DNA from: Traorella massiliensis
GTDB taxonomy: Bacteria; Bacillota_I; Bacilli_A; Erysipelotrichales; Erysipelotrichaceae
NCBI RefSeq assembly: GCF_900104665.1
Contig: NZ_LT629968.1
Span: 62,001 to 126,000 of the forward strand
Direction: 5' to 3'
Length of the DNA stretch: 64,000 nt
Below the pieces are notes generated by a model. That model was not told where the DNA came from and did not search any database. It saw only the letters and a list, made by a program, of their open reading frames with translations. Both the position numbers and the translations under genes were made by a program. This document shows, piece after piece, positions 624-46,381 of the stretch. Position 1 is the first letter of the stretch. Every line of letters starts with the position of its first letter.

Positions 624-1775
624 TTATTTATAAATTTCTTTATATAAGCGAATCATATCGTTGACTTTAATTTCTTTTCTTGTGTTGCTTGGTGATCCGC
701 TGGCATAGGCATCATTTGCCATCTTATCGATACATCCATCAAATGTTTCCTTATCAATGCCATATTCACTCATCGTAGGAATATTCATCTTGGCAAGGAA
801 ATCTGTTAGATAGCTGATAAAGTCATTGGCAGCTTTTTTATCTGAAGTGCTGGTTGATACACCTGTATAGCGAGCAATGTCAGCAAAACGTTCATAAGCA
901 CCATCAACTACATATTTCATGCAGCCTTCTAATAACATGGCGTTGCTTAATCCGTGAGGTACATGGAAAAGGGCACCAATTGGACGGCTCATGCCATGAA
1001 CGATCGTTACAGATGAATTGTTGAAAGCAATACCTGCTTCCAGGGCAGCAAGTGACATCTGAATACGTGCTTCTTCGTTAGAAGGTTCGTTGTATGCAAT
1101 CAGAAGGTTGTTGAAGATTCTTTTGATCGCACTCAGTGCAAATGTGTCGGAAAGTGGCTGTGCCTTTTTTGAAGTATAAGCTTCAACGGCGTGGCAGAGA
1201 GCATCGATACCTGTAAAACTTGTTACTGATTTTGGGGCGCTCATTGAGAATGCTGGATCGATGAGAGCAATATCTGGAATGAGACATGCACCTTTTAGAA
1301 GCATTTTTACTTCTGATGCAGTATCGGTAATGATCGTAAACATCGTTGCTTCACTACCTGTACCAGCTGTTGTTGGAATTGCAACCATCTTTGGCAGATC
1401 CATTTCAATATTTTTACCCATGTAAGAGGCAATTGGTTCTTTTGATTGATTCATCATAGCAATTGCTTTCATGGAATCGATTGGAGAACCACCGCCAATG
1501 GCAATGAGGAAATCACATTCATTTTCCTGATAGACTTTAACGCCCTCTGATATCATAATATCATTCGGTTCACCGCTAATACCGGCATAGATAACAAATT
1601 TTTGATCATTAGCACTTAAAATATCAATGACTTTCTGAGCATTTCCCAGTTTGATCATCGTTTCATCTGTTACGATCAGCGCTTTTGTACCGCATGATGC
1701 AATCGTGGCTTGGGCATCATTTAATGCGTTGGAACCGCTGATGATCTTAGATGGAGTTAAAAATGTATGGGCCAT
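624..1775 (-). CDS. iron-containing alcohol dehydrogenase (group III)
   Basis: NAD(P)-dependent, metal-using alcohol dehydrogenase of the Fe-ADH family, 383 aa, the usual length. Visible are the GGGSPID dinucleotide-binding motif (94-100), TTAGTGSE (135-142) and the four metal ligands D191, H195 (GIDALCHAVEAY), H260 and H274 (HVPHG). It lies 2 bases downstream of the transaldolase gene, so the two are translated from one message, and both sit behind a divergent DeoR regulator. I infer that it reduces or oxidises a short aldehyde or ketone made or used by the aldolase-type partner. The exact substrate (1,3-propanediol, lactaldehyde or another) cannot be told from sequence. Confidence 0.88.
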   Translation of the reverse strand: MAHTFLTPSKIISGSNALNDAQATIASCGTKALIVTDETMIKLGNAQKVIDILSANDQKFVIYAGISGEPNDIMISEGVKVYQENECDFLIAIGGGSPIDSMKAIAMMNQSKEPIASYMGKNIEMDLPKMVAIPTTAGTGSEATMFTIITDTASEVKMLLKGACLIPDIALIDPAFSMSAPKSVTSFTGIDALCHAVEAYTSKKAQPLSDTFALSAIKRIFNNLLIAYNEPSNEEARIQMSLAALEAGIAFNNSSVTIVHGMSRPIGALFHVPHGLSNAMLLEGCMKYVVDGAYERFADIARYTGVSTSTSDKKAANDFISYLTDFLAKMNIPTMSEYGIDKETFDGCIDKMANDAYASGSPSNTRKEIKVNDMIRLYKEIYK

Positions 1776-1777
1776 AA

Positions 1778-2833
1778 TTATTTCACCATATAGCCACGAA
1801 TTAATTTACAGAGGTCATCATAGCCTCCTAAGAATGAAGTGATCGTTGCTTTAAAGGCTCCATAATGTTCGAAGTCTTCTGGCTTTAATCCATCTTCATC
1901 ATAAGCTTTACGGAATTCTTCAAGTTTCATCAGTTTAGAAAGATAATCTGGATTGACAGGCTGACTCATATAGTCTTTGATTTCATAATTTGATTCATTG
2001 TATTTTAGCTGCCATGCATAAGGTATTGTCAATACAATGTCACCGCCGACAAATGAAAGCCAGTGATAAGGATTTCTATAAGCTGCAACTAATAACTGTG
2101 TACGATAACCTCTTTCCTGATAGATCTGATAAGCGTGTTTTACAACCGCAACACCAGCCCATTCCAAAATTTCAGGTTCTACGAGCATACCTTTGGCTTT
2201 GATATCATTTTTCAGATAATCATCCACACGTCCAGCCATGATCGTACATACCGGGTGCATCGTATCAGTTGGCAGTCCTTCTGCTTCACGGCGTTTCAAT
2301 CCTCTCTCTACTGCTTCCGCTACGGCAATGGCCTGAGAAACAGTGAAGGAAACAGTGGCATTGATGCTGACACCACGATAGGTCATCTCTTCATAAGCTT
2401 CAATACCTGCCTTTGATGCTGGCGCTTTTACCTGTGAATTTTCAACAGTAGCGGCCAGATCACAAGCATGTTCAACCATCTTGGCAGCATTATTATAGAA
2501 TTTTGCGTTCGTTTGGAAAGAAATACGTCCTTTTTGTCCATTTGTTTCCTTAAATATAGGATATAGAAGCTTGCTTGCTTTGGCTCCCATTGATTTGATC
2601 ACTTCCCAAGCTACTTCGTCTTCACTAAAAGTCGGGTTATCAGCAATGATTTTTTCAATTGTTGGTTCCCATTCTTTTAATTCTTTTTTTAATACGTTTA
2701 GTACGATCACTGGATTTGTCGTTGCGCCTACGGCACCATTTTCGATTGCATAGCTTAGTTCGTTGCAGCTGCATGAATCATTCCAAACTTGCGTTTGTGG
2801 AAATTTTGTGACAGTCTCTAATAATTTTTTCAT
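1778..2833 (-). CDS. transaldolase-family protein
   Basis: Class I aldolase of the transaldolase family, 351 aa, longer than the 317-aa TalB type. The family motif GATTNP (36-41) and the Schiff-base lysine K136 in QVKAPAS are present, followed by the conserved SINATVSFT strand (157-165). Classical enzymes have VKIPAT at the lysine, so this one has a diverged active-site loop. The start is supported by an AAAGAGGT ribosome binding site on the minus strand. It is first in a two-gene unit with an Fe-ADH and is divergent from a DeoR-type sugar-phosphate regulator. This suggests an inducible catabolic role rather than the housekeeping pentose phosphate step. A specialised sugar-phosphate (for example a deoxy or sulfo sugar) is possible, but nothing in the sequence proves it. 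Confidence 0.8.
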   Translation of the reverse strand: MKKLLETVTKFPQTQVWNDSCSCNELSYAIENGAVGATTNPVIVLNVLKKELKEWEPTIEKIIADNPTFSEDEVAWEVIKSMGAKASKLLYPIFKETNGQKGRISFQTNAKFYNNAAKMVEHACDLAATVENSQVKAPASKAGIEAYEEMTYRGVSINATVSFTVSQAIAVAEAVERGLKRREAEGLPTDTMHPVCTIMAGRVDDYLKNDIKAKGMLVEPEILEWAGVAVVKHAYQIYQERGYRTQLLVAAYRNPYHWLSFVGGDIVLTIPYAWQLKYNESNYEIKDYMSQPVNPDYLSKLMKLEEFRKAYDEDGLKPEDFEHYGAFKATITSFLGGYDDLCKLIRGYMVK

Positions 2834-2911: not shown

Positions 2912-3676
2912 ATGAAATATAATCGAATCAATGAAATAGAAGCTTATCTTCGTAAAGTAAAGTCATCAACAAATGAAGAACTGCTGGATATTTTTAAAGT
3001 TTCCATGCAGACGCTTCGCCGTGATTTAAAAGAGTTGGAAGATCGCAAGGTTGTCAGCAAGGTATATGGCGGTGTCGTTATCAATGAAGATGATTCCATG
3101 AAAGGGAAGACCCTTATTGATATAAAGCTACGTATGAGTTCTCATCTTGAAGAGAAAAAACGCATTGGCGAAGTAGCTGCAAAAGTTATCGAAGAAAACG
3201 ATGTTGTTTTTATCGATTCAGGTACGACAGCTTGTCATATCATTCCTTATCTAGATAAGACAAAGAATATTACCGTGGTGACAAATAGTATCCTAGCAAT
3301 GGAAGCTTTAAAAGATTGTGAGGATATGAAAGTGATTCTGCTCGGTGGTGAATACTGTCCTCGTATCCGTGGATTTAACTTTGATATAACCCATGCACAT
3401 TACTATTATTCAAAGGCTTTTCTGGCAACGGTTGGGCTTTCACTGACAAGAGGATTGACGAATATGGATCCACAAGATGGAATTTTAAAACGTCAGGTGA
3501 TAGAACGTTCGGATCAGGTCTATCTGATGTGTGACTCTAGTAAAGTTGGCTGTGTAGCTTTCAATCGCTTTGCAGAACTAGAAATGATTGACGCATTGGT
3601 TACGGACAAGCTTCCGGAAACTAAATACATGAACTATTTCAAAAAACATCAAATCAAAGTCATTACACCTCAATAA
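2912..3676 (+). CDS. DeoR/GlpR-family transcriptional regulator
   Basis: Sugar-phosphate-responsive repressor of the DeoR family, 254 aa. The N-terminal winged helix-turn-helix (about 17-55) has the usual SMQTLRRDLKELE recognition helix. The C-terminal isomerase-like sensor has the phosphate-binding loop DSGTTACHI (102-110) and the strand VVTNS. It is transcribed away from the transaldolase/Fe-ADH pair with only 78 bases between start codons, the usual layout for a regulator controlling its neighbours and itself. A GAGGGG ribosome binding site precedes the ATG. The inducer is unknown. Confidence 0.88.
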   Translation: MKYNRINEIEAYLRKVKSSTNEELLDIFKVSMQTLRRDLKELEDRKVVSKVYGGVVINEDDSMKGKTLIDIKLRMSSHLEEKKRIGEVAAKVIEENDVVFIDSGTTACHIIPYLDKTKNITVVTNSILAMEALKDCEDMKVILLGGEYCPRIRGFNFDITHAHYYYSKAFLATVGLSLTRGLTNMDPQDGILKRQVIERSDQVYLMCDSSKVGCVAFNRFAELEMIDALVTDKLPETKYMNYFKKHQIKVITPQ

Positions 3677-3945: not shown

Positions 3946-5916
3946 TTGAACGATAACAAATCGAATTACTACACTCAGCAAATATTGAAAGCCTTTTTAG
4001 AAAATGATATGGTGACAAACAATCAGTTGGCAAGTGAGATAGGTTTGTCAGAAAAAACGATTCGCACGAAGATCGATGCCATCAATACGATGCTGATGGA
4101 AAATGGTTTAGGCGAAATTTGCAAGAAGCCTCGAATCGGCATGTGGCTGAATGCTGATGAATATCAGCGCAGTAAGATTCTGATGAATATTACGAGTTCA
4201 AACAGAGATGTCATTCAGAATGATCAGACACGAATGATTGCGGCTTTGCGCAGAATTCTTAAAATGAATAGGACGACGAGTTTAACTACAAGACAGCTGG
4301 CAGATTCTCTCTATCTTAGTGTGCCGACCGCATTGAAAGTGATCAATGACTGTAAAGACTGGTTAAAGATTTTTTCTATTGATCTAAATATTATTCGTAA
4401 TAAAGGCTTAGAACTTGAGTGCAGTGAGGTTAGCTATCGCCTGGCTTTAAAGAATTTTATTATGAAAATGGAGAATACTTCGGATATTGATGCCAGTATT
4501 CTGTATTTTATGCCGGGATTAAATTTGAATCTGATTCGAAAAAGTATCATTTCTACAGAAAAGGAATGGGGCTTTAATCTGGCAGATGAATCATTTAATG
4601 AAATTCTGATTTACTCTTGTATGAGCGTTTTTGAATGTATGCAGGATAAGCGCAAGTCACTGCAGATTTCAAAAAGCGAACTAAAAACGCTGTCACAGTA
4701 CAGCGAATATCGTCTTGCGGAAATGGTATTCAAAAAGATTACTGAAACGATGGACCTGGAGATTCCGGTAGAAGATATTGCATTCTTATCTATTCAGATC
4801 TTATGTGCCAGGATGATCGATCAAGGTTATAACGGTACCGGTCTGCATTCGATTCTGGAAGAATATGACTCTAAGCTGGAAGCTTTTGTCAAAAAGGTCA
4901 TTGATGTGGTCAGCAATGTTACAAATGTTGATCTAACCAATGATGAAGAACTTTATCGTGGCTTATTGCTGCATTTGCGGCCAATGATTTTCAGAATGAA
5001 GTATGAGCGTACCTATACGAATGAACTTACAGGTTACATTAAAAGTGAATTAAAACAGACACTGCGTATTTCCTGGCTGATTTCTGTACTTTTTGAAGAA
5101 GATTTTGGCTTAAAGATCACGGAAGACGAATTAAGTTATATTGCGCTTTATATTCAGTCAGCACTGGATCGTAATTCAGCGCCAATTACTGCAGTTCTCG
5201 TATCAAATGCGAGCATGGGTATAAACCAAATGATCTGTGATAAGCTAAAGCGTTCCTGTGATGAGCTGAAAACGATTCGTGTCAGCAGCATGCATGATTT
5301 TAATATCCGTGACTGTGAAGATGTGAATCTGATCATTACGACCAAACATTTATATCTGGAAGATCCTCGTATCGTGGAAATCAGTGATTGGCTCAATGAT
5401 ACAGGTGTTAACAAGGTGAAGGAAAAAATTCGTCAGATTAATTATCAAAGTAATGAAAAAAAGGTACATTTTGATGCTGCCTGTCACCAGCTTTTTGAAC
5501 CGGATCTGATATTTGTTCACCAGAAAGTCAAGGATAAGGCAGAACTTTTGAATTTGATTGGCAAAAAACTAGTGAAAAAGGGATACGTTACAAATAAATA
5601 TATTCAAACGGTTTTTGATCGTGAAAATATTACACCGACCTCAATTGGTAATGGAGTAGCCATTCCTCATGGAGACCAGAATGAGATCAATGAGGCAAAA
5701 GTAGCTATTGCAACATTGCAGGAACCTATTTTATGGGATAGTGAAAAGGTGGATGTGGTCTTCCTGTTAGTTGTGAAAATGTCAAATGAATTTGAGGCTA
5801 ATCGAACGCAGATGTTTTATAAGCAATATATCAAGCTTGTAGATAGCGATGAGAAGGTCAACATTTTAAGAAGTATTGAATCAAATGTTGATTTCTATAC
5901 ATATTTGGTTCAATAA
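3946..5916 (+). CDS. PRD-domain transcriptional activator with EIIB/EIIA modules (MtlR/LicR/ManR type)
   Basis: PTS-controlled transcription factor, 656 aa. Order: N-terminal helix-turn-helix (about 15-60), second HTH (about 90-150), two PRD modules (about 180-285 and 295-400), an EIIB-like module (about 405-490) and a fructose/mannitol-type EIIA module (about 510-655). The EIIA phosphorylation His is kept (VAIPHG, H575). The EIIB-like loop reads SNASMGIN, so the usual phosphorylated Cys is missing there. The start is TTG, chosen because AAGGAG lies 9 bases upstream and homologues begin near here. It is directly followed by PTS genes whose promoter carries the same ATTACCAC box as its own, so it very probably activates that operon when its PTS is busy with substrate. 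Confidence 0.88.
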   Translation: MNDNKSNYYTQQILKAFLENDMVTNNQLASEIGLSEKTIRTKIDAINTMLMENGLGEICKKPRIGMWLNADEYQRSKILMNITSSNRDVIQNDQTRMIAALRRILKMNRTTSLTTRQLADSLYLSVPTALKVINDCKDWLKIFSIDLNIIRNKGLELECSEVSYRLALKNFIMKMENTSDIDASILYFMPGLNLNLIRKSIISTEKEWGFNLADESFNEILIYSCMSVFECMQDKRKSLQISKSELKTLSQYSEYRLAEMVFKKITETMDLEIPVEDIAFLSIQILCARMIDQGYNGTGLHSILEEYDSKLEAFVKKVIDVVSNVTNVDLTNDEELYRGLLLHLRPMIFRMKYERTYTNELTGYIKSELKQTLRISWLISVLFEEDFGLKITEDELSYIALYIQSALDRNSAPITAVLVSNASMGINQMICDKLKRSCDELKTIRVSSMHDFNIRDCEDVNLIITTKHLYLEDPRIVEISDWLNDTGVNKVKEKIRQINYQSNEKKVHFDAACHQLFEPDLIFVHQKVKDKAELLNLIGKKLVKKGYVTNKYIQTVFDRENITPTSIGNGVAIPHGDQNEINEAKVAIATLQEPILWDSEKVDVVFLLVVKMSNEFEANRTQMFYKQYIKLVDSDEKVNILRSIESNVDFYTYLVQ

Positions 5917-5939: not shown

Positions 5940-6473
5940 ATGGCACTTATAGATATTTTAGATGAGAAGATTATTGATCTTGAAGTTGAAGGAACAACAA
6001 AAGATGAGGTATTGAGAAATTTAAGTCAAAGACTATTAGAAAATGATTACATTACAAATGTGAATGATTTTGTATCAGACATTTACGTGCGTGAAGCAGA
6101 AGGGCCTACAGGTATGGGTAATCACATTTCAATTCCTCATGGAAAAAGTGATGCTGTGAAGAAGATCGGTATTGCCATTGGACGTACAAAAAATATGATC
6201 AAATGGGAAAGCAGCATGTCAAGTGATGGATTCCAGGATACAAATATCATTTTCTTGTTCTGCGTAAGTAATGATAATGATTTTGCAGCTAATCATATGA
6301 TGCTGTTGGCTGAATTGGCTGGAAAACTTGGAAATGATGCTCGTGTTGCGAAATTACAGGACGTTACAACTAAGAAAGAGCTGATCGATGTGATCTTGAA
6401 TGAGCCGGAAACTGGTAATTCAGGGGATAATCAGGAAGATGAAAATTTTGATGTTGATATCAATTTCTCTTAA
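5940..6473 (+). CDS. PTS EIIA component, fructose/mannitol type
   Basis: Cytoplasmic phosphocarrier that passes phosphate from HPr to the EIIB below. 177 aa; the active-site His is H67 in ISIPHGKS. The C-terminus has an acidic tail of about 25 residues (rich in Asp, Glu and Asn) beyond the normal EIIA fold. An AGGAGGT site precedes the ATG, 23 bases after the regulator, so it is probably co-transcribed with it. A gap of about 150 bases with its own promoter separates it from the EIIB and EIIC genes. Confidence 0.88.
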   Translation: MALIDILDEKIIDLEVEGTTKDEVLRNLSQRLLENDYITNVNDFVSDIYVREAEGPTGMGNHISIPHGKSDAVKKIGIAIGRTKNMIKWESSMSSDGFQDTNIIFLFCVSNDNDFAANHMMLLAELAGKLGNDARVAKLQDVTTKKELIDVILNEPETGNSGDNQEDENFDVDINFS

Positions 6474-6527
6474 TAAAATATTCAAAAAATGCTCATAAAC
6501 TAGACACAAAATAAAAATAAAGCAAAA

Positions 6528-6583
6528 ATTACCACATTAAAATTACCACTTAACTTTTACTGAAAGGGTTTACGAGTGATAAA
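6528..6583 (+). promoter_or_regulatory. promoter with two ATTACCAC boxes before the PTS operon
   Basis: ATTACCAC occurs at 6528-6535 and 6542-6549 (14-base period); GATAAA at 6578-6583 within GTGATAAATTA is the -10. The first box is 50 bases from the -10, as at the regulator promoter. A degenerate cre-like string TGAAAGGGTTTACG (6561-6574) lies between; it lacks the central CG, so CcpA binding is doubtful. Confidence 0.58.
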
Positions 6584-6630
6584 TTATGAGTGTAGTTAAG
6601 CAAGTCATTTAGAAAGTTGAGGTGAAAATA

Positions 6631-6948
6631 ATGAGAATCGTAGGTGTTACATGCTGTACTGCAGGTATTGCACACACTTACATCGTAGCTGAGAAGATCC
6701 AGGCTGCTGCAACTGAAGCAGGTCATCAGTGCAAGATCGAAACTCAGGGAACGATTGGTGCTCAAAGCCAGTTAACAGCTGAAGACATTGCTGCTGCTGA
6801 TGTTGTTATTTTAGCTCATGACATCGCAGTAGGAGGAGTTGAAAGATTTGCTGGAAAACCAGTAGTCGACATTCCTATTACTGTTGCAATGAAAAATCCA
6901 AAGAGTTTGATTGCAACTATTGAAAAAAAGTTAGCTAATAAAAAATAA
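6631..6948 (+). CDS. PTS EIIB component, fructose type
   Basis: Cytoplasmic EIIB phosphocarrier, 105 aa. The fructose-family signature reads VTCCTAGIAHT; by alignment with the usual VTACPTGIAHT, C9 is the phosphorylated Cys. I start at the ATG at 6631 because TGAGGTG sits at correct spacing; the upstream in-frame GTG overlaps that site. It lies 23 bases before the EIIC gene. Together with EIIA (5940) it completes a three-protein PTS instead of the fused EIIABC of ordinary fructose systems. Confidence 0.88.
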   Translation: MRIVGVTCCTAGIAHTYIVAEKIQAAATEAGHQCKIETQGTIGAQSQLTAEDIAAADVVILAHDIAVGGVERFAGKPVVDIPITVAMKNPKSLIATIEKKLANKK

Positions 6949-6971
6949 AAATTTTAAAGAGGGGTAAAATT

Positions 6972-8072
6972 ATGTCAATAAGTACTGTTAAAAAACACGT
7001 TATGACCGGTATTTCCTACATGATCCCAATGGTAGTTGCCGGAGGTATTCTTGGCGCACTAGCTAAAGGTCTTGGTGGATGGCAGGTAGGAGATCTGGCA
7101 CCTAATGCTGATGGAGCTGCAACAATTTTCTCTAACTTAAATATGTTAAATTGGGGACAGTTCTGGTGGTCAATTTCTAAATTATCTGATTATGCAATGA
7201 GCTTTGCTTGTGGTGTATTAGCTGCTGGTATCGCTTATTCAATGTCTGAACGTCCAGGTATCGTTCCAGGTTTCATCATTGGTTATACTGCTAACCAGGC
7301 TAAAGCTGGATTCTTAGGTGCTATGGTCATGGCATTCTTCATTGGATGGTTAGTAAATGTATTTAAGAAGATCAAACTTCCTAAAGCTATGATGGGCTTG
7401 ATGCCAGTATTGATCATTCCAGTTTGTGTAACATTTATTTCAGGTGTTGTTTTCTTCGGTGTAGCAATGGCTCCAATGACTTGGATTATGAATTTATTGT
7501 TAGACTGGATTACTTCACTGAACAGTGGATCTCAGTTTATTGTTGGTGCTGTTATCGGTGCTTGCATGGGCTTCGATATGGGTGGTCCTATCAACAAGAC
7601 TGCATCTATGGCTGCTAACGCATTGATGACTGATGGAATCTATGCACCAGAAACTGCAAAGATCATCGGTGGTATGACTCCACCTCTGGGAGTTGCTATC
7701 TCTACATTCTTACAACCAAAGAAATTTACTCAGGCTGAAAGAGACACAGGTATTTCTTGTATCTTTATGGGACTTTGCTTCATCACTGAAGGTGTTCTTC
7801 CATTCGCAGCTAATGACCCAGTTCGCTTCATTCCTTGCTCAATGATCGGTAGTGGTATTGCTGGCGGTTTAGCAATGATGTTAGCTATTGAGACACCTGC
7901 TGCTCATGGTGGTATCTTCGTTATGCCATTATCTTCTAATCCATTAATGTGGGTTGTATGCTTGCTGGTTGGTTCTGTTGTAACTGGTGTATTATATGCC
8001 ATCGTTAAGAAACCATTGGCTGAAGAAGATGTAGTCGAAGAAGAAATCGTAGACTTAGACATTAACCTATAA
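6972..8072 (+). CDS. PTS EIIC permease, fructose type
   Basis: Membrane permease subunit, 366 aa. It has the fructose-type EIIC start (SYMIPMVVAGGILGALA) and about nine hydrophobic segments. The conserved MGGPINKTA loop is at about 195-203, and an ITEGVLPFAANDP loop lies near 275. The C-terminus is charged and acidic. It follows EIIB and precedes an aldolase and sugar-acid enzymes, so the substrate is probably not plain fructose. I infer a substrate whose phosphorylated form feeds the downstream enzymes. Confidence 0.9.
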   Translation: MSISTVKKHVMTGISYMIPMVVAGGILGALAKGLGGWQVGDLAPNADGAATIFSNLNMLNWGQFWWSISKLSDYAMSFACGVLAAGIAYSMSERPGIVPGFIIGYTANQAKAGFLGAMVMAFFIGWLVNVFKKIKLPKAMMGLMPVLIIPVCVTFISGVVFFGVAMAPMTWIMNLLLDWITSLNSGSQFIVGAVIGACMGFDMGGPINKTASMAANALMTDGIYAPETAKIIGGMTPPLGVAISTFLQPKKFTQAERDTGISCIFMGLCFITEGVLPFAANDPVRFIPCSMIGSGIAGGLAMMLAIETPAAHGGIFVMPLSSNPLMWVVCLLVGSVVTGVLYAIVKKPLAEEDVVEEEIVDLDINL

Positions 8073-8114
8073 AATATTTAAATTAAAAGGAAGGAAAAGA
8101 GGTAGAAATTAGTT

Positions 8115-8999
8115 ATGTATGTATCAATGAAAGATATCTTAATGCATGCTCATAAACACAATTATGCAGTTATGGCAGTAAATAGTGTAAACATGGAAAT
8201 GGCTCGTGCAGTCATTGAAGCTGCTGAAGAAGAACATTCACCTATTATTATCAATATTGGAGTTGGCCAAATGGCAAAGCTGGCTCATCCAACTGAAATG
8301 GTTCCTATGATTAAAGCAATGGCAGAACGTGCAAACGTTCCAGTAGCGTTGAATCTTGATCATGGACAGAAATTCAGTGATATGGTAGATGCAATTCATT
8401 GGGGATTCTCAAGTGTAATGATTGATGCCTCTTCCTATCCTTATGAAGAAAACGTTAAGAGAACTTCAACTATCGTATCTTTAGCTCATCCTAAAAACAT
8501 CTGTGTTGAAGGTGAGTTAGGACACGTAGGACAGGCTGCTGATGGCGATAACTCTAGAGATGATCTATATACAAATGTTGAACAAGCTGTTCAGTTTGTA
8601 AAAGATACAGGTGTGGATGCTTTAGCAGTTGCTATCGGAACAGCTCATGGAAATTATCCGAAAGGTTATGTTCCAGTTCTTGATTTCGAAAGACTTGCTG
8701 AACTAAAGAAAGCTCTTGATATGCCGCTTGTATTACACGGTGGTTCAGGTTCAGGTGAAGAAAATATCCGTAAGGCTGTTGCTGGCGGTATTAACAAGAT
8801 CAATGTTTGTACTGATGCTTTCCATGCTGCAGAAGATGCTATGAAGGCTGCTTGGGAAGAAAAACCAGGACTGAACTATCTTGAAATCATGATGGTTGCA
8901 GAAGCTGCTATTAAAAAGTTTGTTAAAGATTATATTCGTGTTATTGGTTCAAATGACCAGTACATCTATGGTGAAACAGTTACTGTAGGTAACGAATAG
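8115..8999 (+). CDS. class II ketose-bisphosphate aldolase (FbaA/GatY/KbaY family)
   Basis: Zinc-dependent aldolase, 294 aa. Seen are LDHG (81-84) with a zinc His, GELGHVG, GTAHGNYPKG with another zinc His, and the phosphate-binding LHGGSGSGEE loop. The family cleaves fructose- or tagatose-1,6-bisphosphate, or related ketose phosphates, into two trioses. Position in a PTS operon with dehydrogenases and an acid-sugar kinase argues for a dedicated catabolic aldolase. Start supported by AAAAGAGGTAG upstream. It is followed by a hairpin with a U-rich tail that may lower transcription into the next gene. Confidence 0.86.
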   Translation: MYVSMKDILMHAHKHNYAVMAVNSVNMEMARAVIEAAEEEHSPIIINIGVGQMAKLAHPTEMVPMIKAMAERANVPVALNLDHGQKFSDMVDAIHWGFSSVMIDASSYPYEENVKRTSTIVSLAHPKNICVEGELGHVGQAADGDNSRDDLYTNVEQAVQFVKDTGVDALAVAIGTAHGNYPKGYVPVLDFERLAELKKALDMPLVLHGGSGSGEENIRKAVAGGINKINVCTDAFHAAEDAMKAAWEEKPGLNYLEIMMVAEAAIKKFVKDYIRVIGSNDQYIYGETVTVGNE

Positions 9000-9007
9000 T
9001 TTTAATA

Positions 9008-9036
9008 AAGGTGGCTGTTATAGCCACCTTCATTTT
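9008..9036 (+). terminator. intra-operon hairpin with U-rich tail
   Basis: 9-bp stem AAGGTGGCT (9008-9016) with 9022-9030, 5-base loop, then CATTTTT. It lies between aldolase and dehydrogenase on the same strand with no evident new promoter, so probably a partial terminator or processing and stability site. Confidence 0.65.
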
Positions 9037-9062
9037 TGAGAAAATAGGAAAGAGGTAGAAGG

Positions 9063-9818
9063 ATGTTTGAATTAAATGGAAAGGTTGCATTAGTAACCGG
9101 AGCCAACAGAGGACTTGGTTTTGCTATGTGTATGGCATTAGCAGAAGCGGGTGCGGATATATTTAATGTTGGTAATGATAATGATGATGAAATTAAAGCA
9201 GCTGTTGAAAAAACAGGACGCCAATATCGTTATTATTTCGCTGATCTGTCAAAACCTTCAAAGGCTTTATCTGATAAAATTGTAGAAGAAGTGGTTAAGG
9301 AATATGGCCACTTGGATATTCTATTAAATAATGCTGGTGCAAATCGTCGTACACCATTCTTAGATTATCCGGAAGAAGATTGGGACTTTTTGATCAATCT
9401 AAATTTGAAGAATGTATTCCACATGTCACAAAGTGCTGCTAACCAAATGGTGAAGCAGCAGACAAAAGGCAAGATCATCAACATTGCCAGTATGCTTTCA
9501 TTTACTGGTGGTATTTATGCACCGGCCTATGCTGCAAGTAAAAGCGGAGTCATGGGTTTAACAAAATCGATGGCCAATGAATTATCTAAACTTGGAATCA
9601 ATTGTAATGCTATCGCACCGGGGTATATGGATACACCGATGACAAAACCAATGCAGGAAGATCCTGTACGTAATAAAGAAGTATTGGACCGTATCCCTAT
9701 TGGATATTGGGGAAAACCAGAAGTTCTTAAAGGACCTGTTGTTTTCTTAGCTTCTAGTGCTTCTGATTATGTATGTGGAGCTACATTGCCTGTAGATGGC
9801 GGATGGCTGTCACGTTAA
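9063..9818 (+). CDS. kduD: SDR-family dehydrogenase, KduD/DhuD-like
   Basis: NAD(P)-dependent short-chain dehydrogenase, 251 aa. Cofactor motif TGANRGLG (12-19), NNAG (89-92), catalytic Ser near 143, Tyr156 and Lys160 (YAASK). The C-terminus (PIGYWGKPEVLKGPVVFLA, then PVDGGWL) is the pattern of 2-dehydro-3-deoxy-D-gluconate 5-dehydrogenase (KduD) and its streptococcal counterpart DhuD. In those pathways it interconverts 3-deoxy-2,5-diketogluconate and KDG after glycosaminoglycan or pectin breakdown. The next gene is DhuI-like, which supports the assignment. No KDG kinase of the PfkB type or KDPG aldolase of the Eda type is in the window. Symbol is by family resemblance. Confidence 0.8.
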   Translation: MFELNGKVALVTGANRGLGFAMCMALAEAGADIFNVGNDNDDEIKAAVEKTGRQYRYYFADLSKPSKALSDKIVEEVVKEYGHLDILLNNAGANRRTPFLDYPEEDWDFLINLNLKNVFHMSQSAANQMVKQQTKGKIINIASMLSFTGGIYAPAYAASKSGVMGLTKSMANELSKLGINCNAIAPGYMDTPMTKPMQEDPVRNKEVLDRIPIGYWGKPEVLKGPVVFLASSASDYVCGATLPVDGGWLSR

Positions 9819-9848
9819 TATAAATAAATGGGAAAAGGAGAAAAAAGT

Positions 9849-10493
9849 ATGAAAATTGCGTTAATGAATGAATTTAGTCAGGCTTCTAAAAATGCTCTTG
9901 TTTTAGAACAGTTAAAAGATGTCGTAGAACCAATGGGACATACTGTATATAATACAGGAATGTGTAAGGATGGCGATGATCCTTATTTGACATATTTGAA
10001 CTTAGGTGTTCAGGCTGCGTTATTATTAAACTCTAAGGCTGTTGACTTTGTAGTAACAGGATGTGGAACAGGTCAGGGTGCTTTGATGGCTTTAAATGCA
10101 TTCCCTGGTGTTGTTTGTGGTTACTGCATTGAACCAAGTGATGCTTATTTGTTCTTACAGATCAACAATGGTAATGCTCTTTCTATTCCTTATGCAAAAG
10201 GATTTGGCTGGGGTGCTGAATTAAATATTCATACAATATTTGAAAAAGCCTTTGGTTCTCCAAAAGGAATGGGTTATCCAAATGAACCAGGTAGAAAAGA
10301 ATCTCAGAATAGAAACGCAGCTAATCTGTTTAAGATGAAGGAAGCTATTGGCAAAGATTTAATCTCTGCATTAAAAGCTATCGATCAGGATATTGTAAAA
10401 CAGGCATTATCTCCAAGATTTTTGGAATGCTTCAATGAAGGCTGCCAGGTTCCTGAATTAAAAGCTTACGTTGATGAATTACTAGCAAAATAG
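9849..10493 (+). CDS. RpiB/LacAB-family isomerase, DhuI-like
   Basis: Sugar isomerase of the RpiB/LacA/LacB family, 214 aa, longer than the ~150-aa RpiB. Visible are the N-terminal MKIALMNEFSQASKNA strand, the family GTGQGA turn and a conserved EPSDAYLFLQINNGNA segment. This matches the family in streptococci named DhuI, an isomerase of 4-deoxy-5-hexosulose uronate. The start at 9849 is set by AAAAGGAG 8 bases upstream; a 7-codon longer frame exists but lacks this site. The pairing with the KduD/DhuD-like gene suggests unsaturated uronate or related deoxy sugar-acid metabolism. Confidence 0.75.
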   Translation: MKIALMNEFSQASKNALVLEQLKDVVEPMGHTVYNTGMCKDGDDPYLTYLNLGVQAALLLNSKAVDFVVTGCGTGQGALMALNAFPGVVCGYCIEPSDAYLFLQINNGNALSIPYAKGFGWGAELNIHTIFEKAFGSPKGMGYPNEPGRKESQNRNAANLFKMKEAIGKDLISALKAIDQDIVKQALSPRFLECFNEGCQVPELKAYVDELLAK

Positions 10494-10520
10494 GAACCAT
10501 GCTTTCGCATGGTTTCTTTT
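10493..10520 (+). terminator. second intra-operon hairpin
   Basis: 8-bp perfect stem AACCATGC (10495-10502) with GCATGGTT (10507-10514), 4-base loop, then TCTTTTA. It separates the dehydrogenase/isomerase pair from the GldA-like gene and may tune downstream expression. Confidence 0.65.
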
Positions 10521-10536
10521 ATAGAAAGGGAATTTT

Positions 10537-11607
10537 ATGAATAGTGTTTTTTTACCACGATTTACGATGGGCATTGGTGCCTGCAAATCAATCAGTGAAT
10601 TTTTAAAAGAAAATACAAAGGTTGCAGTACTATACGGCAATAAAGCTTATCAGGCTGCAAAACCATATTTAGATGAAGCTTTTTCAGAAGCAAAGCTAGA
10701 TATCGTTGTTTTAAAAAACTATGGTCATGAAGCAACTTATGAAAATGTAGAAATGATTCAAAATTTTGAAGGCATGGATCAGGTAGAAGCTTTAATTGGT
10801 GTCGGTGGCGGAAAATGTCTGGATACGATCAAATATGTCGGTGATAAGATGAATTTACCGGTTTATACGATTCCAACCATTGCTTCAACATGTGCAGCAG
10901 TAACTAAGATCAGTATCATGTATAATGCTGATGGTTCATTCAAAGATATTCCAAAGTTAAAACAGCCTCCGGTTCATTGCTTTATTGAACCACGTATCAT
11001 CTGTGATGCCCCAATCCAATATTTATGGGCAGGTATTGGTGATACGATGGCAAAGCATGTTGAGTCGGTATTTAGTGCTAGAAATGATGAATTGGATTAT
11101 GCCAGTGAATTAGGTATTAAGATCGGTGAAAACTGCTACTATCCAATGCTACGTGATGGAGCACAGGCTTTAGAAGATGCAAAGAATCATGCTGTAACAC
11201 CGGCTCTTGAAAGAGTTATTCAAAATATTTTAATTACAACAGGAAGTGTTTCTTTATCTGTTGATGCAGCTTATAACTCAGCACTTGCTCATGCACTTTT
11301 CTATGGATTAACAGTACGTAAGCATATCGAAAAGAATCATTTGCATGGTGAGGTCGTTTCTTATGGAACACTGGTTCAGTTAATGATGGATAAGCAGACA
11401 GACATGCTTGAAAAGACATATCAGTTTAATAAGCAGATTGGTTTGCCAACTTGTCTAAAAGATTTAGAATTAAATATTCATGATGATTTAGAAGATATAT
11501 TGGAAAAGGCTGAAAGTAATTCAGAACTTGAACATGTGCCATATCCGGTAACAAAAGATTTGATTTATCAGGCAATGAAAGATTTAGAAGAATATGGAGG
11601 TAAATAA
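10537..11607 (+). CDS. GldA-type (glycerol dehydrogenase family) dehydrogenase
   Basis: NAD-dependent, zinc-using dehydrogenase of the glycerol dehydrogenase branch of the Fe-ADH superfamily, 356 aa. The GVGGGKCLDTIKY cofactor motif is near 90 and PTIASTCAAVTKIS near 112. Metal ligands are visible as the Asp of AGIGDTMAKH (about 168), the His of ALAHALFYG (about 249) and the His of HLHGEVVSYG (about 268). The residues around the substrate differ from true GldA. The gene sits in a sugar-acid operon and overlaps the ribosome binding site of the racemase-like gene, so it likely acts on a polyol or hydroxy-ketone intermediate. Substrate unknown. Confidence 0.82.
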   Translation: MNSVFLPRFTMGIGACKSISEFLKENTKVAVLYGNKAYQAAKPYLDEAFSEAKLDIVVLKNYGHEATYENVEMIQNFEGMDQVEALIGVGGGKCLDTIKYVGDKMNLPVYTIPTIASTCAAVTKISIMYNADGSFKDIPKLKQPPVHCFIEPRIICDAPIQYLWAGIGDTMAKHVESVFSARNDELDYASELGIKIGENCYYPMLRDGAQALEDAKNHAVTPALERVIQNILITTGSVSLSVDAAYNSALAHALFYGLTVRKHIEKNHLHGEVVSYGTLVQLMMDKQTDMLEKTYQFNKQIGLPTCLKDLELNIHDDLEDILEKAESNSELEHVPYPVTKDLIYQAMKDLEEYGGK

Positions 11608-11608
11608 G

Positions 11609-12268
11609 ATGAAAAAAATAGTAATGATTCACACAAGTCCTGTTTCTTTAAATGATTTAAAAGAATTAGTAAAAGAAAAAATGCCAGATGTTGAATTGGT
11701 GAATATCATCGATGATTCACTGTTGGAAGAAGTAAAGGGCAATGGTGGTTTAACACCAGCGATTATTTCACGTATGATGACTTATGTTCAGACAGCTGCT
11801 TCTTTAAAACCTGATTTGATTTTCAATCAATGTTCAAGTGTTGGAGAAGCCTTTGATATCGCAAAGAAATGTACAGATATCCCAACGCTTAAGATTGATG
11901 AAGCAATGGCAGAAAGGGCTGTTTCTTTAGGTAAGAAAATTGCTGTGATCGCAACGGTTGCATCTACGATGAAACCTAGCTGTAATTTAGTGAGAACGAA
12001 AGCTAAAGAAGCTGGAAAAGAAGTTGAAGTAAAAGAATATCTTGTTAATGGCGCTTTAGATATCTTGATGAAAGAGAAAAATGTTGAAAAGCATAATCAG
12101 CTTGTTTTAAATGAAATCAACAAGGCATGTGAAGAATGTGATGTTGTTGTCTTAGCTCAAGGTTCTATGACAGCGATCCTTCCTTATTTGAAAGAAACTT
12201 CTAAGCCAGTGCTTACAAGTCCTGAAATGGCGATTGATCGTGCTAAGGAGATGCTTTATGGAAAATAG
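11609..12268 (+). CDS. Asp/Glu/hydantoin racemase-superfamily protein
   Basis: 219-aa protein of the Asp/Glu racemase fold. Two Cys-containing segments at the equivalent places (FNQCSSVGEA near 71, and KPSCNLVR near 128) could supply the paired Cys acid/base residues, but the spacing is not classical. An AQGSMTAILPYL segment is near 185. I start at ATG 11609 because GGAGG (11596-11600) is well spaced; the in-frame GTG upstream is inside the previous gene. It overlaps the kinase gene by 11 bases, so the two are translationally coupled. Racemase-fold proteins next to DUF1537 kinases suggest a sugar-acid isomerase role, which is inference. Confidence 0.7.
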   Translation: MKKIVMIHTSPVSLNDLKELVKEKMPDVELVNIIDDSLLEEVKGNGGLTPAIISRMMTYVQTAASLKPDLIFNQCSSVGEAFDIAKKCTDIPTLKIDEAMAERAVSLGKKIAVIATVASTMKPSCNLVRTKAKEAGKEVEVKEYLVNGALDILMKEKNVEKHNQLVLNEINKACEECDVVVLAQGSMTAILPYLKETSKPVLTSPEMAIDRAKEMLYGK

Positions 12269-13568
12269 AAAGATGATCGTACTTGATGATGATCCAACAG
12301 GTATTCAAAGTGTTCATGATGTATTGGTCATTACTCAGCCAACACTTGATAATCTAAAGGAAGCTATGACATCATCAGGATCTCTTTTCTATATTCTGAC
12401 AAATTCTCGCTCTTTTAGTGAAGAAAAAACAGCGGAATACCATAGAGAATTAACGCAATTGATTGTTGAAGCTGCTAATCAAAGCAAGACAGACTTTATG
12501 ATCTTATCAAGAGGTGATTCTACGCTTCGTGGTCACTATCCGTTAGAAACAGAAATTATTCGTCAGGTATTAGAAGAAAATGGACAACAAATTGACGGTG
12601 AAATCATCTGTCCTTATTTAGATGGTATTCGCAAAACAGAAAATGATATCCATTATGTGAAGACGGATGATGGCTGGCTGCCATGTGGTGAAAGTGAATT
12701 TGCAAAGGATAAATCTTTCGCATATCATGCTTCAGATTTGAAGGAATATGTGGAAGAAAAGACAAAAGGTGCTTATAAGGCAGCTGATTGTATCAGTATT
12801 TCATTAGAAGATTTAAATGATGAACATACAGTTATAGAAAAACTGAACAGTGTTTCAGATTTCAATAAAGTAATCATTAACTGTACATGTATGAATGATC
12901 TAAAAAAGTTTGTATGTGCTTTTGAGAAGTGTAGGAAACGCTATATGTTCCGTTGTGCTGCTAGTATTGTGAAAGAGCTGGCTCATATCGAAGATCGACC
13001 TTATCTAACCAAAGAAGATTGTGTTCAGGAAGGTACTGGAGGTCTGATCCTTGTGGGCAGTCATGTAAAGAAAACCGCTTCACAATTAGCTTATTTAAAA
13101 GAACATGCGAAAGATTTAGTATGGATCGAATTTAATCAGCATAAGGTATTAGACAATACCTTGCATGAAGAAAGCCTGCGTGTCAGTGGTGAACTTGAAA
13201 AAGTACTGAAAGAAGATAAGGTTGCGGTAGTTGCGACACGAAGAGAAAGGGTCGATTTCCCAGGTGATGATCCAGAAAAACAACTTGAAATGGCAACAGC
13301 GATTTCTAGTGAACTCATTGGTGTTCTTTCTCGTTTAACGATTCGTCCACGCTTTTTGATTACCAAAGGGGGTATTACTTCCAGTGATGCCTTAACAATA
13401 GGTTTAAAAGTATCAAAAGAATGGGTATTAGGCCAGATTCAGCAGAATGTTGGTGTAGTTCGCTGCTTAGAAGGCAGTAAATTTGAAAATTTGCCAGTTG
13501 TTGTTTTCCCAGGAAATGTTGGTGATGAAACAACGCTGTATAAGGTTGTTGAAACACTTCATAGTTAA
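12258..13568 (+). CDS. four-carbon acid sugar kinase family protein (DUF1537)
   Basis: ATP-dependent kinase of the DUF1537 family (OtnK, DtnK and LtnK are characterised members that phosphorylate tetronates), 436 aa. Visible: DDDPTGIQSVHDV (N-terminal acid-binding site), LSRGDSTLRGHYPLE (about 82-96), KGGITSSDA (about 370, ATP-binding domain) and PVVVFPGNVGDE near the C-terminus. Start is the ATG at 12258 with AAGGAG 7 bases upstream. It is the last gene of the operon. Its acceptor is not predictable; in the local context it could phosphorylate a sugar acid such as KDG or a tetronate. Confidence 0.82.
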   Translation: MENRKMIVLDDDPTGIQSVHDVLVITQPTLDNLKEAMTSSGSLFYILTNSRSFSEEKTAEYHRELTQLIVEAANQSKTDFMILSRGDSTLRGHYPLETEIIRQVLEENGQQIDGEIICPYLDGIRKTENDIHYVKTDDGWLPCGESEFAKDKSFAYHASDLKEYVEEKTKGAYKAADCISISLEDLNDEHTVIEKLNSVSDFNKVIINCTCMNDLKKFVCAFEKCRKRYMFRCAASIVKELAHIEDRPYLTKEDCVQEGTGGLILVGSHVKKTASQLAYLKEHAKDLVWIEFNQHKVLDNTLHEESLRVSGELEKVLKEDKVAVVATRRERVDFPGDDPEKQLEMATAISSELIGVLSRLTIRPRFLITKGGITSSDALTIGLKVSKEWVLGQIQQNVGVVRCLEGSKFENLPVVVFPGNVGDETTLYKVVETLHS

Positions 13569-13884: not shown

Positions 13885-15963
13885 ATGAAAGACAAGATTT
13901 TTGAAGTCCTGCAGCGTGTAGGACGTAGCTTTATGCTGCCGATAGCGATTCTTCCGGTAGCTGGATTATTTTTGGGAATTGGTGGATCATTTACGAATCC
14001 AACAATGGTGGAAGCCTATGGATTGACATCTATATTAGGTGAAGGAACTTTCATGTATGCGATTTTGACGGTTTTAAATAAGTGTGGCGATATTATCTTC
14101 GCCAATCTTCCAATTCTATTTGCGATGGGAGTAGCGATTGGAATGGCAAAGAAAGAGAAAGAAGTTGCGGCATTGGCAGGTGCTATTGCTTTCTTTGTCA
14201 TGCATACAGCAATCAGTGCAATGCTAAGTGTCACAGGCATTGCAGAAAGTCTTCCAGCCGGTTCGATTACAAATGTCGTAGGTATTCAGTCATTACAGAT
14301 GGGTGTCTTTGGCGGTATCATCGTTGGCCTTGGAGTTGCTTATTTACATAATAAATTTTATAAAATTGAATTGCCACAGGTTCTTTCCTTTTTTGGAGGA
14401 ACACGTTTTGTACCAATTATTTGTTCGATTGCTTATCTTATTGTAGGTATCATCATGTTTTATATTTGGCCTTCAATTCAAAATGGTATCTATGCAGTAG
14501 GTGAGCTGGTACGTAATTCAGGCTATGGCGGTACATTCTTATACGGGCTTATGGAAAGAGCCTTGATACCGTTTGGTTTACACCATGTATTCTATATGCC
14601 ATTCTGGCAGACTGCTGTAGGAGGCAGTGCTAATGTTTGTGGTACGATCGTAGAAGGTGCTCAGAATATTTTCTTTGCGGAATTGGGATGTCCAGCAACT
14701 ACAGTTTTCAATACAGAAGCAACACGTTTTATGGCTGGAAAATTTCCACTGATGATCTTTGGTCTTCCAGGTGCTGCTTTAGCAATGTATCGTTGTGCAA
14801 AACCTGAGAAAAGGAAAATTGCAGGAGGTCTCTTGATTTCAGCTGCCTTAACATCTATGCTGACAGGCATTACTGAACCTCTTGAGTTTACTTTCTTATT
14901 CGTAGCGCCGCTTCTATATGTCATTCATAGTATCTTTGCTGGGTTGGCTTACATGCTGATGCACATTTTTAAAGTGGGTGTCGGAATGACTTTCTCTGGA
15001 GGACTGATCGATCTTTCACTTTTTGGTATCCTGCAGGGAAATGCGAAAACCAATTGGTATTGGATCGTCATCATTGGTATCATTTACTTTATTGTCTATT
15101 ATTTCGTGTTTACTTTCTTTATAAAGAAAATGAATTTGAAAACACCGGGACGTGAAGATGATAGTGAAGAAACAAAGCTCTATACTCGTGCTGATGTGAA
15201 TGCGAAAAAGCAAGGGAATAGTGATACATCAGTGAGTGCCTTGATTGTAAAAGGTCTTGGTGGTGCTGATAATATTTCAGATGTAGACTGCTGTGCAACT
15301 CGTCTAAGAATAACTGTTTTTGATTCTTCTAAAGTGAGTGAAGATATCTTAAAACAAAGCGGTGCTGCAGGTGTGATCTTTAAAGGAAAAGGTGTTCAGA
15401 TTATTTATGGTCCAAAGGTAACGGTCATCAAATCAAATCTTGAAGATTATCTTCATAACCCAACAGCACATGAAAAGTTTGAGGTGATTGAAGAAACAAA
15501 GGTGAGTGATGTGAAAGATGTCTTTGTTTCTCCGCTTAGTGGTGAATTAAAGCTGATTACAGAAGCGCCTGATGAAACCTTTGCGACAAAAATGATGGGA
15601 GATGGTGTAGTGATTTTCCCAAATGATGGAAATGTTTATGCTCCTTGTGATGGTAAGATCAAGATGATTTTCCCAACGAAACATGCATTAGGCATTGAAA
15701 GCAAAGAAGGAGTAGAATTATTACTGCATATAGGAATTGATACTGTTCAGTTAAATGGAGAAGGCTTTGAATTACATTGTGAAGCTGAACAAGAAATCAA
15801 AAAGGGTGACAAACTGCTTTCTTTTGATTTAAAATATATACAGGAACATGCGAAAAGTAGCGCAACTGTTATTGTATTTACAAATCTCTCAGATCAGCAG
15901 CATCTTGAACTTTTAAAACTTGGAGATGTACAAGCAAAAGAAGAGATCATTCGCTTATCCTAG
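13885..15963 (+). CDS. ptsG: PTS EIICBA, glucose (PtsG) family
   Basis: Fused sugar permease and phosphotransferase, 692 aa. IIC spans about 1-410 with the glucose-type GLHHVFYMPFW loop (near 232) and TEPLEFTFLF (near 332). IIB is about 440-525 with DCCATRLR; by alignment C470 is the phosphorylated Cys. IIA is about 545-685 with LLLHIGIDTVQL, H615. The domain order and FGLHH..PFW resemble PtsG more than the GlcNAc NagE type, but glucosamine or another glucoside is possible. Regulation is unusually clear: promoter with a cre palindrome, then an RAT/terminator. The antiterminator gene follows 15 bases downstream. Confidence 0.88.
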   Translation: MKDKIFEVLQRVGRSFMLPIAILPVAGLFLGIGGSFTNPTMVEAYGLTSILGEGTFMYAILTVLNKCGDIIFANLPILFAMGVAIGMAKKEKEVAALAGAIAFFVMHTAISAMLSVTGIAESLPAGSITNVVGIQSLQMGVFGGIIVGLGVAYLHNKFYKIELPQVLSFFGGTRFVPIICSIAYLIVGIIMFYIWPSIQNGIYAVGELVRNSGYGGTFLYGLMERALIPFGLHHVFYMPFWQTAVGGSANVCGTIVEGAQNIFFAELGCPATTVFNTEATRFMAGKFPLMIFGLPGAALAMYRCAKPEKRKIAGGLLISAALTSMLTGITEPLEFTFLFVAPLLYVIHSIFAGLAYMLMHIFKVGVGMTFSGGLIDLSLFGILQGNAKTNWYWIVIIGIIYFIVYYFVFTFFIKKMNLKTPGREDDSEETKLYTRADVNAKKQGNSDTSVSALIVKGLGGADNISDVDCCATRLRITVFDSSKVSEDILKQSGAAGVIFKGKGVQIIYGPKVTVIKSNLEDYLHNPTAHEKFEVIEETKVSDVKDVFVSPLSGELKLITEAPDETFATKMMGDGVVIFPNDGNVYAPCDGKIKMIFPTKHALGIESKEGVELLLHIGIDTVQLNGEGFELHCEAEQEIKKGDKLLSFDLKYIQEHAKSSATVIVFTNLSDQQHLELLKLGDVQAKEEIIRLS

Positions 15964-15978
15964 TTTAGGAGGAATAGA

Positions 15979-16803
15979 ATGTTTGAAATTACTAAAATCT
16001 TAAATCATAATGCAATTCTTGTCATAAAAGATCAAAGGGAATATCTGATATTAGATAAAGGAATTGGTTTTGGAAAAAAAGTAAAAGATCAAATTAAAAA
16101 TGCTTCCTTTGAAGCTGTATATCAGCTTCAAAGTGAAACTAAAAGAGGTAATAAAGAAATCATTGAAAAAATCGATCCTATCTTTTTAGAAATTGCCCAT
16201 CAGATTCTTAAACATGCCAGTGAAAAGCTAGGAAATCTTGATCATAACATTCTATTGCCTTTAAGTGATCATATTGCTTTTGCCATTGAAAGAATAAAAA
16301 ATGGACTTATAATTTCTAATCCATTTACCAATGAAATAAGGATGCTGAACCCAGATGAATATAAGATAGCCAGTATCGCTAAATCAATTATTCAAAATAG
16401 ATTAGGTTATGAAATCAATGAAGATGAAATTGGCTATATTACTTTACATCTGCATAGTGCAGCGACCCATGAGAAAGTAGATGAAAGCATGAAAATTGCT
16501 ATGATCGTACAAGAAAGTATTAAAACGATTGAAGAAAAGTTAAATACTTCAATTAATATTCATTCATTGGCATATAGTCGGTTATTAACACATATGAAAT
16601 ATATGCTGGCACGAATAAAAACGAATGAAAAATTAAATTTGGATATGGATGAATATGTGCGAACTCACTTTCCATTAGCTTATGAAGCAGCTGAAGCAAT
16701 CATAATTCAAATTGGTAAAGAATTGCATCGTACGATACCTAGGATTGAGATTGGTTATCTAGGGTTGCATATCCAGCGTATTTGTGACATAACGAAAGAA
16801 TAA
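15979..16803 (+). CDS. BglG/LicT/GlcT-family transcription antiterminator
   Basis: RNA-binding antiterminator, 274 aa. The N-terminal CAT RNA-binding domain (1-55) starts MFEITKILNHNAILV; PRD1 is about 65-170 with conserved His in SDHIAFAIER and LHLHSAA, and PRD2 about 175-274 with His in YLGLHIQRI. PRD phosphorylation by the PTS controls such proteins. It almost certainly acts on the RAT/terminator before the EIICBA gene, as the two genes are 15 bases apart. GlcT-like by context, LicT-like by sequence; the two cannot be separated here. Confidence 0.88.
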   Translation: MFEITKILNHNAILVIKDQREYLILDKGIGFGKKVKDQIKNASFEAVYQLQSETKRGNKEIIEKIDPIFLEIAHQILKHASEKLGNLDHNILLPLSDHIAFAIERIKNGLIISNPFTNEIRMLNPDEYKIASIAKSIIQNRLGYEINEDEIGYITLHLHSAATHEKVDESMKIAMIVQESIKTIEEKLNTSINIHSLAYSRLLTHMKYMLARIKTNEKLNLDMDEYVRTHFPLAYEAAEAIIIQIGKELHRTIPRIEIGYLGLHIQRICDITKE

Positions 16804-46372: not shown

Positions 46373-46381
46373 GAGGAAATC

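Follow-up and report, generated by a model that had tools for sequence, protein, structure and literature searches.

A phosphotransferase operon conserved among Erysipelotrichaceae

Which compound is degraded by an operon that combines a phosphotransferase system (PTS) with a DhuI-like isomerase, a class II aldolase and a DUF1537 kinase, and does the route pass through 2-keto-3-deoxygluconate (KDG)? The question is raised by nine genes at positions 5940-13568 of a stretch of 64,000 nucleotides of the gut bacterium Traorella massiliensis (contig NZ_LT629968.1), hereafter called the window. All of them lie on the + strand and encode, in order, EIIA, EIIB and EIIC of a PTS, an aldolase of the fructose-bisphosphate aldolase (FBA) family, a short-chain dehydrogenase/reductase (SDR), a DhuI-like isomerase, a GldA-like dehydrogenase, a protein of the Asp/Glu-racemase fold (RACE) and the DUF1537 kinase. 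The intergenic gaps measure 23-148 bases, apart from a single base between the GldA and RACE genes and an overlap of 11 bases between RACE and DUF1537. A preliminary description of this DNA had reported nine same-strand genes with short gaps or overlaps, and both its coordinates and its domain assignments hold. The operon is conserved but uncharacterized. Probably, a sugar acid is taken up by the PTS and then split by the aldolase. As our best explanation, put forward tentatively, this acid is of the hexuronate or keto-hexonate type and is degraded by isomerization, phosphorylation and retro-aldol cleavage, and not via KDG. What was observed is which genes the operon contains, how conserved they are, which families and clades they belong to and where active sites differ; from this we infer all substrates and the order of the steps.

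Judged against NCBIfam cut-offs, the PTS is of the fructose type, with EIIA at 5940..6473 (TIGR00848, 111.9, cut-off 103.5), EIIB at 6622..6948 (TIGR00829, 93.8, cut-off 76.85) and EIIC at 6972..8072 (TIGR01427, 278.8, cut-off 157.55). Since the gene set recurs in a second Traorella genome (a metagenome-assembled genome of an uncultured member of the genus, 94-99% protein identity) and, minus the SDR, in other Erysipelotrichaceae, it is not a chance association. Using the RACE alignment we collected 80 loci, of which 20, the window included, have an FBA of the window type. RACE is present in all 20, EIIC in 19, DhuI and GldA in 18 each, and DUF1537 in 15; transaldolase (11), iron-containing alcohol dehydrogenase (Fe-ADH, 9), IolB-like (8), transketolase halves (7), UxuA/UxuB (5) and IolC (2) genes are less frequent. 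Some of the absences are caused by contig ends (locus L054 stops inside DUF1537). The KduD-like SDR is confined to the Traorella copies.

Other arrangements of the RACE loci are PTS-FBA-RACE-transaldolase in Holdemania and Dielma, without DUF1537 or DhuI; a type B in Youngiibacter and relatives (DeoR-GntP-cupin-RACE-tartronate-semialdehyde reductase-DUF1537-FBA); ABC-linked forms; and plasmid loci in Deinococcus (oxidoreductase-RACE-DUF1537-FBA) and Rhodococcus (RACE-DUF1537-FBA). Split transketolase genes occur in operon loci L026, L029, L036, L042 and others, where hydroxypyruvate is conceivable as ketol donor.

An ordinary KDG pathway in the same genome

According to the preliminary description none of the usual partners of KDG metabolism is present, which is correct for the operon itself but not for the genome (G000; 2.6 Mb, 99% complete). 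Genes for Eda (TIGR01182, 259.5 bits, cut-off 156) and for a KdgK-like kinase lie on the same contig at G000:C8:46831-48818, some 19 kb 5' of the operon. They are part of a block (G000:C8:46040-53584, 8-16 kb before the window start) of IolB-like, Eda, KdgK-like kinase and Fe-ADH genes with divergent UxaA-like and UxaB-like genes. UxaC is encoded elsewhere in the genome and was found in 9/9 genomes tested, and we therefore reject an IolB-like or DhuI-like protein as the sole hexuronate isomerase of the genome.

These findings bear on a non-orthologous KDG route, which the preliminary description had offered as one option, in which DUF1537 would phosphorylate KDG and the class II aldolase would cleave 2-keto-3-deoxy-6-phosphogluconate (KDPG). 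Both enzyme classes do share the operon with a KduD-like SDR. However, under such a bypass kdgK and eda would be expected to be missing from the genome, the SDR is absent from the operons outside Traorella, and enzymes of the FBA family form dihydroxyacetone phosphate (DHAP), whereas KDPG cleavage gives pyruvate. Moreover, the operon of related locus L033 holds, in this order, UxaC, Eda, KdgK, SDR, GldA, RACE, DUF1537, UxuA, UxuB, transketolase halves and an IolB-like gene, named mostly by sequence inspection and similarity to scanned proteins (the SDR, which was scanned, is of the gluconate 5-dehydrogenase type). Because DUF1537, Eda and KdgK stand in one operon there, DUF1537 occurs alongside the KDG enzymes rather than in their stead. 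On the grounds of the genomic Eda and KdgK and of L033, we reject the bypass as very improbable; a role of the operon as substitute for the ordinary KDG pathway is not supported. The other option of that description, that some different sugar acid is imported by the PTS and degraded, is supported as a class.

The DhuI-like isomerase differs at position 9

The isomerase (9849..10493, +) belongs to the RpiB/LacAB family and matches the characterized DhuI gbs1892 (PDB 4u8e; E 5e-64, 51% identity). In the tree, the operon-type proteins nevertheless form a clade separate from 4u8e (support 100/98). They have Phe at position 9 in 19/19 cases, against Asn in 13/14 other DhuI-family proteins, the non-Asn exception being that of Saccharobesus, which is sister to the operon type. 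In our alignment, position 9 corresponds to His9 of LacB by a gapless N-terminus. LacB His9 touches O6 of the substrate, and its mutation inactivates LacAB (PMC3755991). Phe9 therefore suggests a changed substrate, other than 4-deoxy-L-threo-5-hexosulose uronate (DHU).

A DHU route would have the isomerase and the SDR (9063..9818, +) convert imported DHU to KDG, to be finished by KdgK and Eda, while the other genes of the operon would handle a second substrate. The operon does pair a KduD/DhuD-family SDR with an adjacent DhuI-family isomerase; the SDR scores 333.0 with the kduD model TIGR01832, just below the cut-off of 338.85; KdgK and Eda are available in the genome; and the nearest DhuI relatives outside the family adjoin kduD, oligogalacturonate lyase (OGL) or GH88 genes (Rahnella, Vibrio). 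Yet neither GH88/105 (PF07470) nor OGL (PF14583) was found in the 99% complete genome, and both Phe9 and the restriction of the SDR to Traorella are at odds with such a route. Locus L171 has two DhuI paralogues about 5 kb apart: a DHU-type one that adjoins SDR, KdgK and Eda, near a GH88 gene for unsaturated glucuronyl hydrolase (UGL), and an operon-type one in a PTS-FBA-transaldolase operon. We thus consider a DHU route quite improbable, and we reject degradation of glycosaminoglycan or pectin through DHU as the main function, with no UGL or OGL in the genome and an SDR that is not conserved. The dhuD-dhuI cluster of glycosaminoglycan-degrading Bacillota (PMC12838403) resembles the operon in the succession of SDR and DhuI-family isomerase; here, however, kdgK and kdgA lie outside the operon, UGL is missing from the genome, and the DhuI with Phe9 is of another clade. 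If our best explanation is correct, not every DhuI-family protein should be annotated as a DHU isomerase.

A strong hairpin of 10 pairs, a possible insertion point or attenuator, lies at 9008-9030 of the window, after the FBA gene and ahead of the SDR gene specific to Traorella.

A proposed cleavage to DHAP and a C3 acid

The aldolase (8115..8999, +; Pfam F_bP_aldolase, 318 bits) reaches no equivalog cut-off and forms a clade of its own, which is linked with a PTS in 19/20 loci. Its metal ligands are intact (LDHG, TAHG, LHGGSG). It is 37% identical to E. coli YdjI, whose annotation is that of an aldolase for a ketose-1-phosphate uronate. The YdjI cluster of E. coli K-12 shares this enzyme type with the operon, but has the YdjH kinase and lacks PTS, RACE and DUF1537.

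We hypothesize that a ketose-type acid enters through the PTS and is thereby phosphorylated at its primary hydroxyl. Intracellular aldehyde acid would be converted to a 5-keto acid by the DhuI-like isomerase, and this product could be phosphorylated by DUF1537. Cleavage of the 5-keto-6-phosphate by the aldolase would then yield DHAP plus a semialdehyde acid of three carbons (malonate or tartronate semialdehyde), which RACE and the redox enzyme GldA (10537..11607, +; Fe-ADH type, 1kq3, E 3e-44) may hand to central metabolism. Such a cleavage is favored by several lines of evidence. First, the aldolase would take a position like that of IolJ, described as an FBA-type aldolase, which produces DHAP and malonate semialdehyde (PMC9430895, PMC9007349). 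Second, relatives of IolB, IolC and IolA accompany the operon in related loci: IolC exceeds its cut-off of 300 in L021 (379) and L027 (329), and L171 encodes IolB (272, cut-off 205) and an aldehyde dehydrogenase that is best matched by TIGR01722 (IolA or methylmalonate-semialdehyde dehydrogenase family; 380, short of its cut-off, 448.5). Third, the type-B operon of Youngiibacter (L073) has a tartronate-semialdehyde reductase (413.8, cut-off 397) beside RACE, DUF1537 and FBA. Fourth, uronate genes are close by, as the UxaA/UxaB/Eda/KdgK block near the window and as UxuA/UxuB flanking 5/20 loci. We also count in favor the linkage of the FBA clade with the PTS, its identity to YdjI, the separate Phe9 clade of the isomerase, and that a GarK-type glycerate kinase was not found in 8/9 operon genomes.

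The likeness to the lower myo-inositol pathway (IolB-IolC-IolJ-IolA) lies in the logic of isomerase, kinase, FBA-family aldolase and aldehyde dehydrogenase. The window operon lacks IolB, IolC and IolA, whose places would be filled by the DhuI-like protein and by PTS/DUF1537. A true inositol operon is rejected, as no IolC exceeds the cut-off in the genome.

Several observations weigh against the proposed route. The best IolC score in the genome is 105 against 300, and two IolB-like proteins, both divergent and from related loci, reach only 90-93 against 205. The specificity of an FBA fold is not readable from sequence. DUF1537 looks redundant if the PTS already phosphorylates, and in L014 and L015 (= L046, L049) RACE and DUF1537 form a two-gene module beside HAD, NagB-like or GntR genes, without PTS or aldolase.

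Alternatively, the substrate may be a neutral ketose, which the PTS would convert to a ketose-1-phosphate and the aldolase to DHAP and glyceraldehyde or glycolaldehyde, the acid-handling genes being side modules. The fructose type of the EII proteins is consistent with this view, as is L118, a minimal operon of this genome that has PTS and FBA but no RACE. The DUF1537, DhuI-like and RACE families, however, indicate acids, and uronate and inositol genes are nearby, so that we consider a neutral ketose improbable. The L118 operon (G000:C7, L118:7979-12253), the second in the genome with fructose-type PTS IIABC and FBA, has a regulator of its own and resembles the Holdemania and Dielma type; in a third fructose-type PTS operon (G000:C7, L108:7139-11548) a KDPG/KHG-aldolase-family gene (PF01081) replaces FBA.

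In the literature searched, with the spellings tried, we found no paper naming 5-ketogluconate-6-phosphate or keto-hexuronate-1-phosphates. If the proposed DHAP-forming route is correct, Erysipelotrichaceae of the gut break down an acid related to uronates to DHAP outside the KDG pathway.

The DUF1537 kinase and tetronate metabolism

The DUF1537 protein (12258..13568, +; Pfam SBD_N and NBD_C) gave no match at E 0.001 in a search of solved structures. A long branch (4.6 to 5.9) divides the DUF1537 tree into YgbK with the ABC-linked forms on one side and, on the other, the window protein, those of types B and D, and those of Arthrobacter, Rhodococcus and Deinococcus. The window protein groups (100/100) with that of Arthrobacter StoSoilB13, whose gene adjoins 3-hydroxyisobutyrate dehydrogenase (HIBDH), GntP and FBA-family genes. 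As summarized in PMC12540250, citing Guo et al. (2024), Arthrobacter ZBG10 degrades L-threonate in three steps, with LtnD, the DUF1537 kinase 2-OtnK and 2-OtnC of the F_bP_aldolase family. By that description the StoSoilB13 locus has the same gene set, and we use its protein in place of the characterized ZBG10 enzyme. The clade of the window protein thus holds a probable 2-oxo-tetronate kinase. We rejected an identity as 3-OtnK or DtnK, since the protein scores 54 bits where DtnK requires 450 and is in a clade other than that of YgbK.

This placement keeps a tetronate pathway in play as the main rival explanation. GldA would produce a 2-oxo-tetronate by oxidizing a C4 acid, RACE would epimerize or isomerize it, DUF1537 would phosphorylate it as 2-OtnK does, and the FBA-family enzyme would decarboxylate the product to DHAP. 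Besides the Arthrobacter relationship, the proximity of the kinase to those of the RACE-DUF1537-FBA operons of Rhodococcus and Deinococcus, far from E. coli YgbK, and the parallel between type-B operons and E. coli ygbIJKLMN argue for it. Nonetheless, the operon aldolase is only 25% identical to the StoSoilB13 FBA and in a clade other than that protein's; no LtnD-type dehydrogenase (HIBDH) is present, the dehydrogenases being GldA-like and SDR; the PTS, DhuI and RACE are additional to the summarized threonate pathway, with PTS and DhuI left unexplained; and the Holdemania and Dielma operons lack DUF1537. We regard this pathway as unlikely.

The tetronate operon ygbIJKLMN of E. coli (LtnD, 3-OtnK, OtnC, OtnI) resembles the window operon in its DUF1537 family, DeoR regulator and aldolase partner. 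YgbK, however, is 16% identical and of another clade, and an AraD-type aldolase and a Hyi-type isomerase stand in place of FBA and RACE. Within the literature searched, the preliminary remark that no described pathway was recognized in these genes stands for the whole combination, but not for the partnership of a DUF1537 kinase with an FBA-family enzyme, which the summary of Guo et al. (2024) describes for 2-oxo-tetronate.

A racemase-fold family with a single catalytic cysteine

RACE (11609..12268, +; PF01177, 49 bits, cut-off 31), a family in which one catalytic Cys is lost, is the most distinctive part of the operon. A search of solved structures with the single sequence gave no match at E 0.001. 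Its predicted model (pLDDT, the predicted local distance difference test, 93) has its nearest structural matches among the racemases of aspartate and glutamate (Z about 20), with aspartate racemase 1jfl as the best fold match (Z 20.9, 212 residues, rmsd 2.6). The first catalytic Cys, C75, is conserved in 82/82 aligned sequences, while the second is replaced in 82/82 by the motif AQxSM (AQGSM in the window protein). Two-base racemization is therefore unlikely, and we infer a one-base isomerization or epimerization. In the DHAP-forming route proposed above, RACE could perform a 2-oxo/3-oxo isomerization, for example of tartronate semialdehyde to hydroxypyruvate. A bolder version, which we hold to be more doubtful than the route as such, is that hexuronate-type acids reach DHAP without KDG by way of an isomerase, a kinase or PTS and an FBA-family aldolase, and that RACE, a racemase-fold enzyme with one catalytic cysteine, represents a 2-oxo/3-oxo acid isomerase of a new type. 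The family extends from Bacillota to Deinococcota, Actinomycetota, Pseudomonadota and haloarchaea, and would, if our best explanation is correct, gain a testable role in acid-sugar catabolism.

Neighboring genes

Two regulators precede the operon on the same strand, one of the DeoR family (2912..3676, +) and one PTS-controlled with HTH_11, Mga, two PRD and EIIA2 domains (3946..5916, +). A divergent pair (624-2833) encodes a transaldolase-family protein (1778..2833, -; Pfam TAL_FSA, 142 bits) and an Fe-ADH of the ErcA/lactaldehyde-reductase family (627..1775, -), which is below all equivalog cut-offs. Directly 3' of the operon (13885-16803) are genes for a glucose-type PTS IICBA and then a GlcT/LicT-like antiterminator. 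Nothing was found when the window was scanned for Rfam families and tRNAs. Farther downstream, the window encodes the alpha and beta subunits of a ribonucleotide reductase (43850-47422) and an AdhE-type dehydrogenase (49460-52099).

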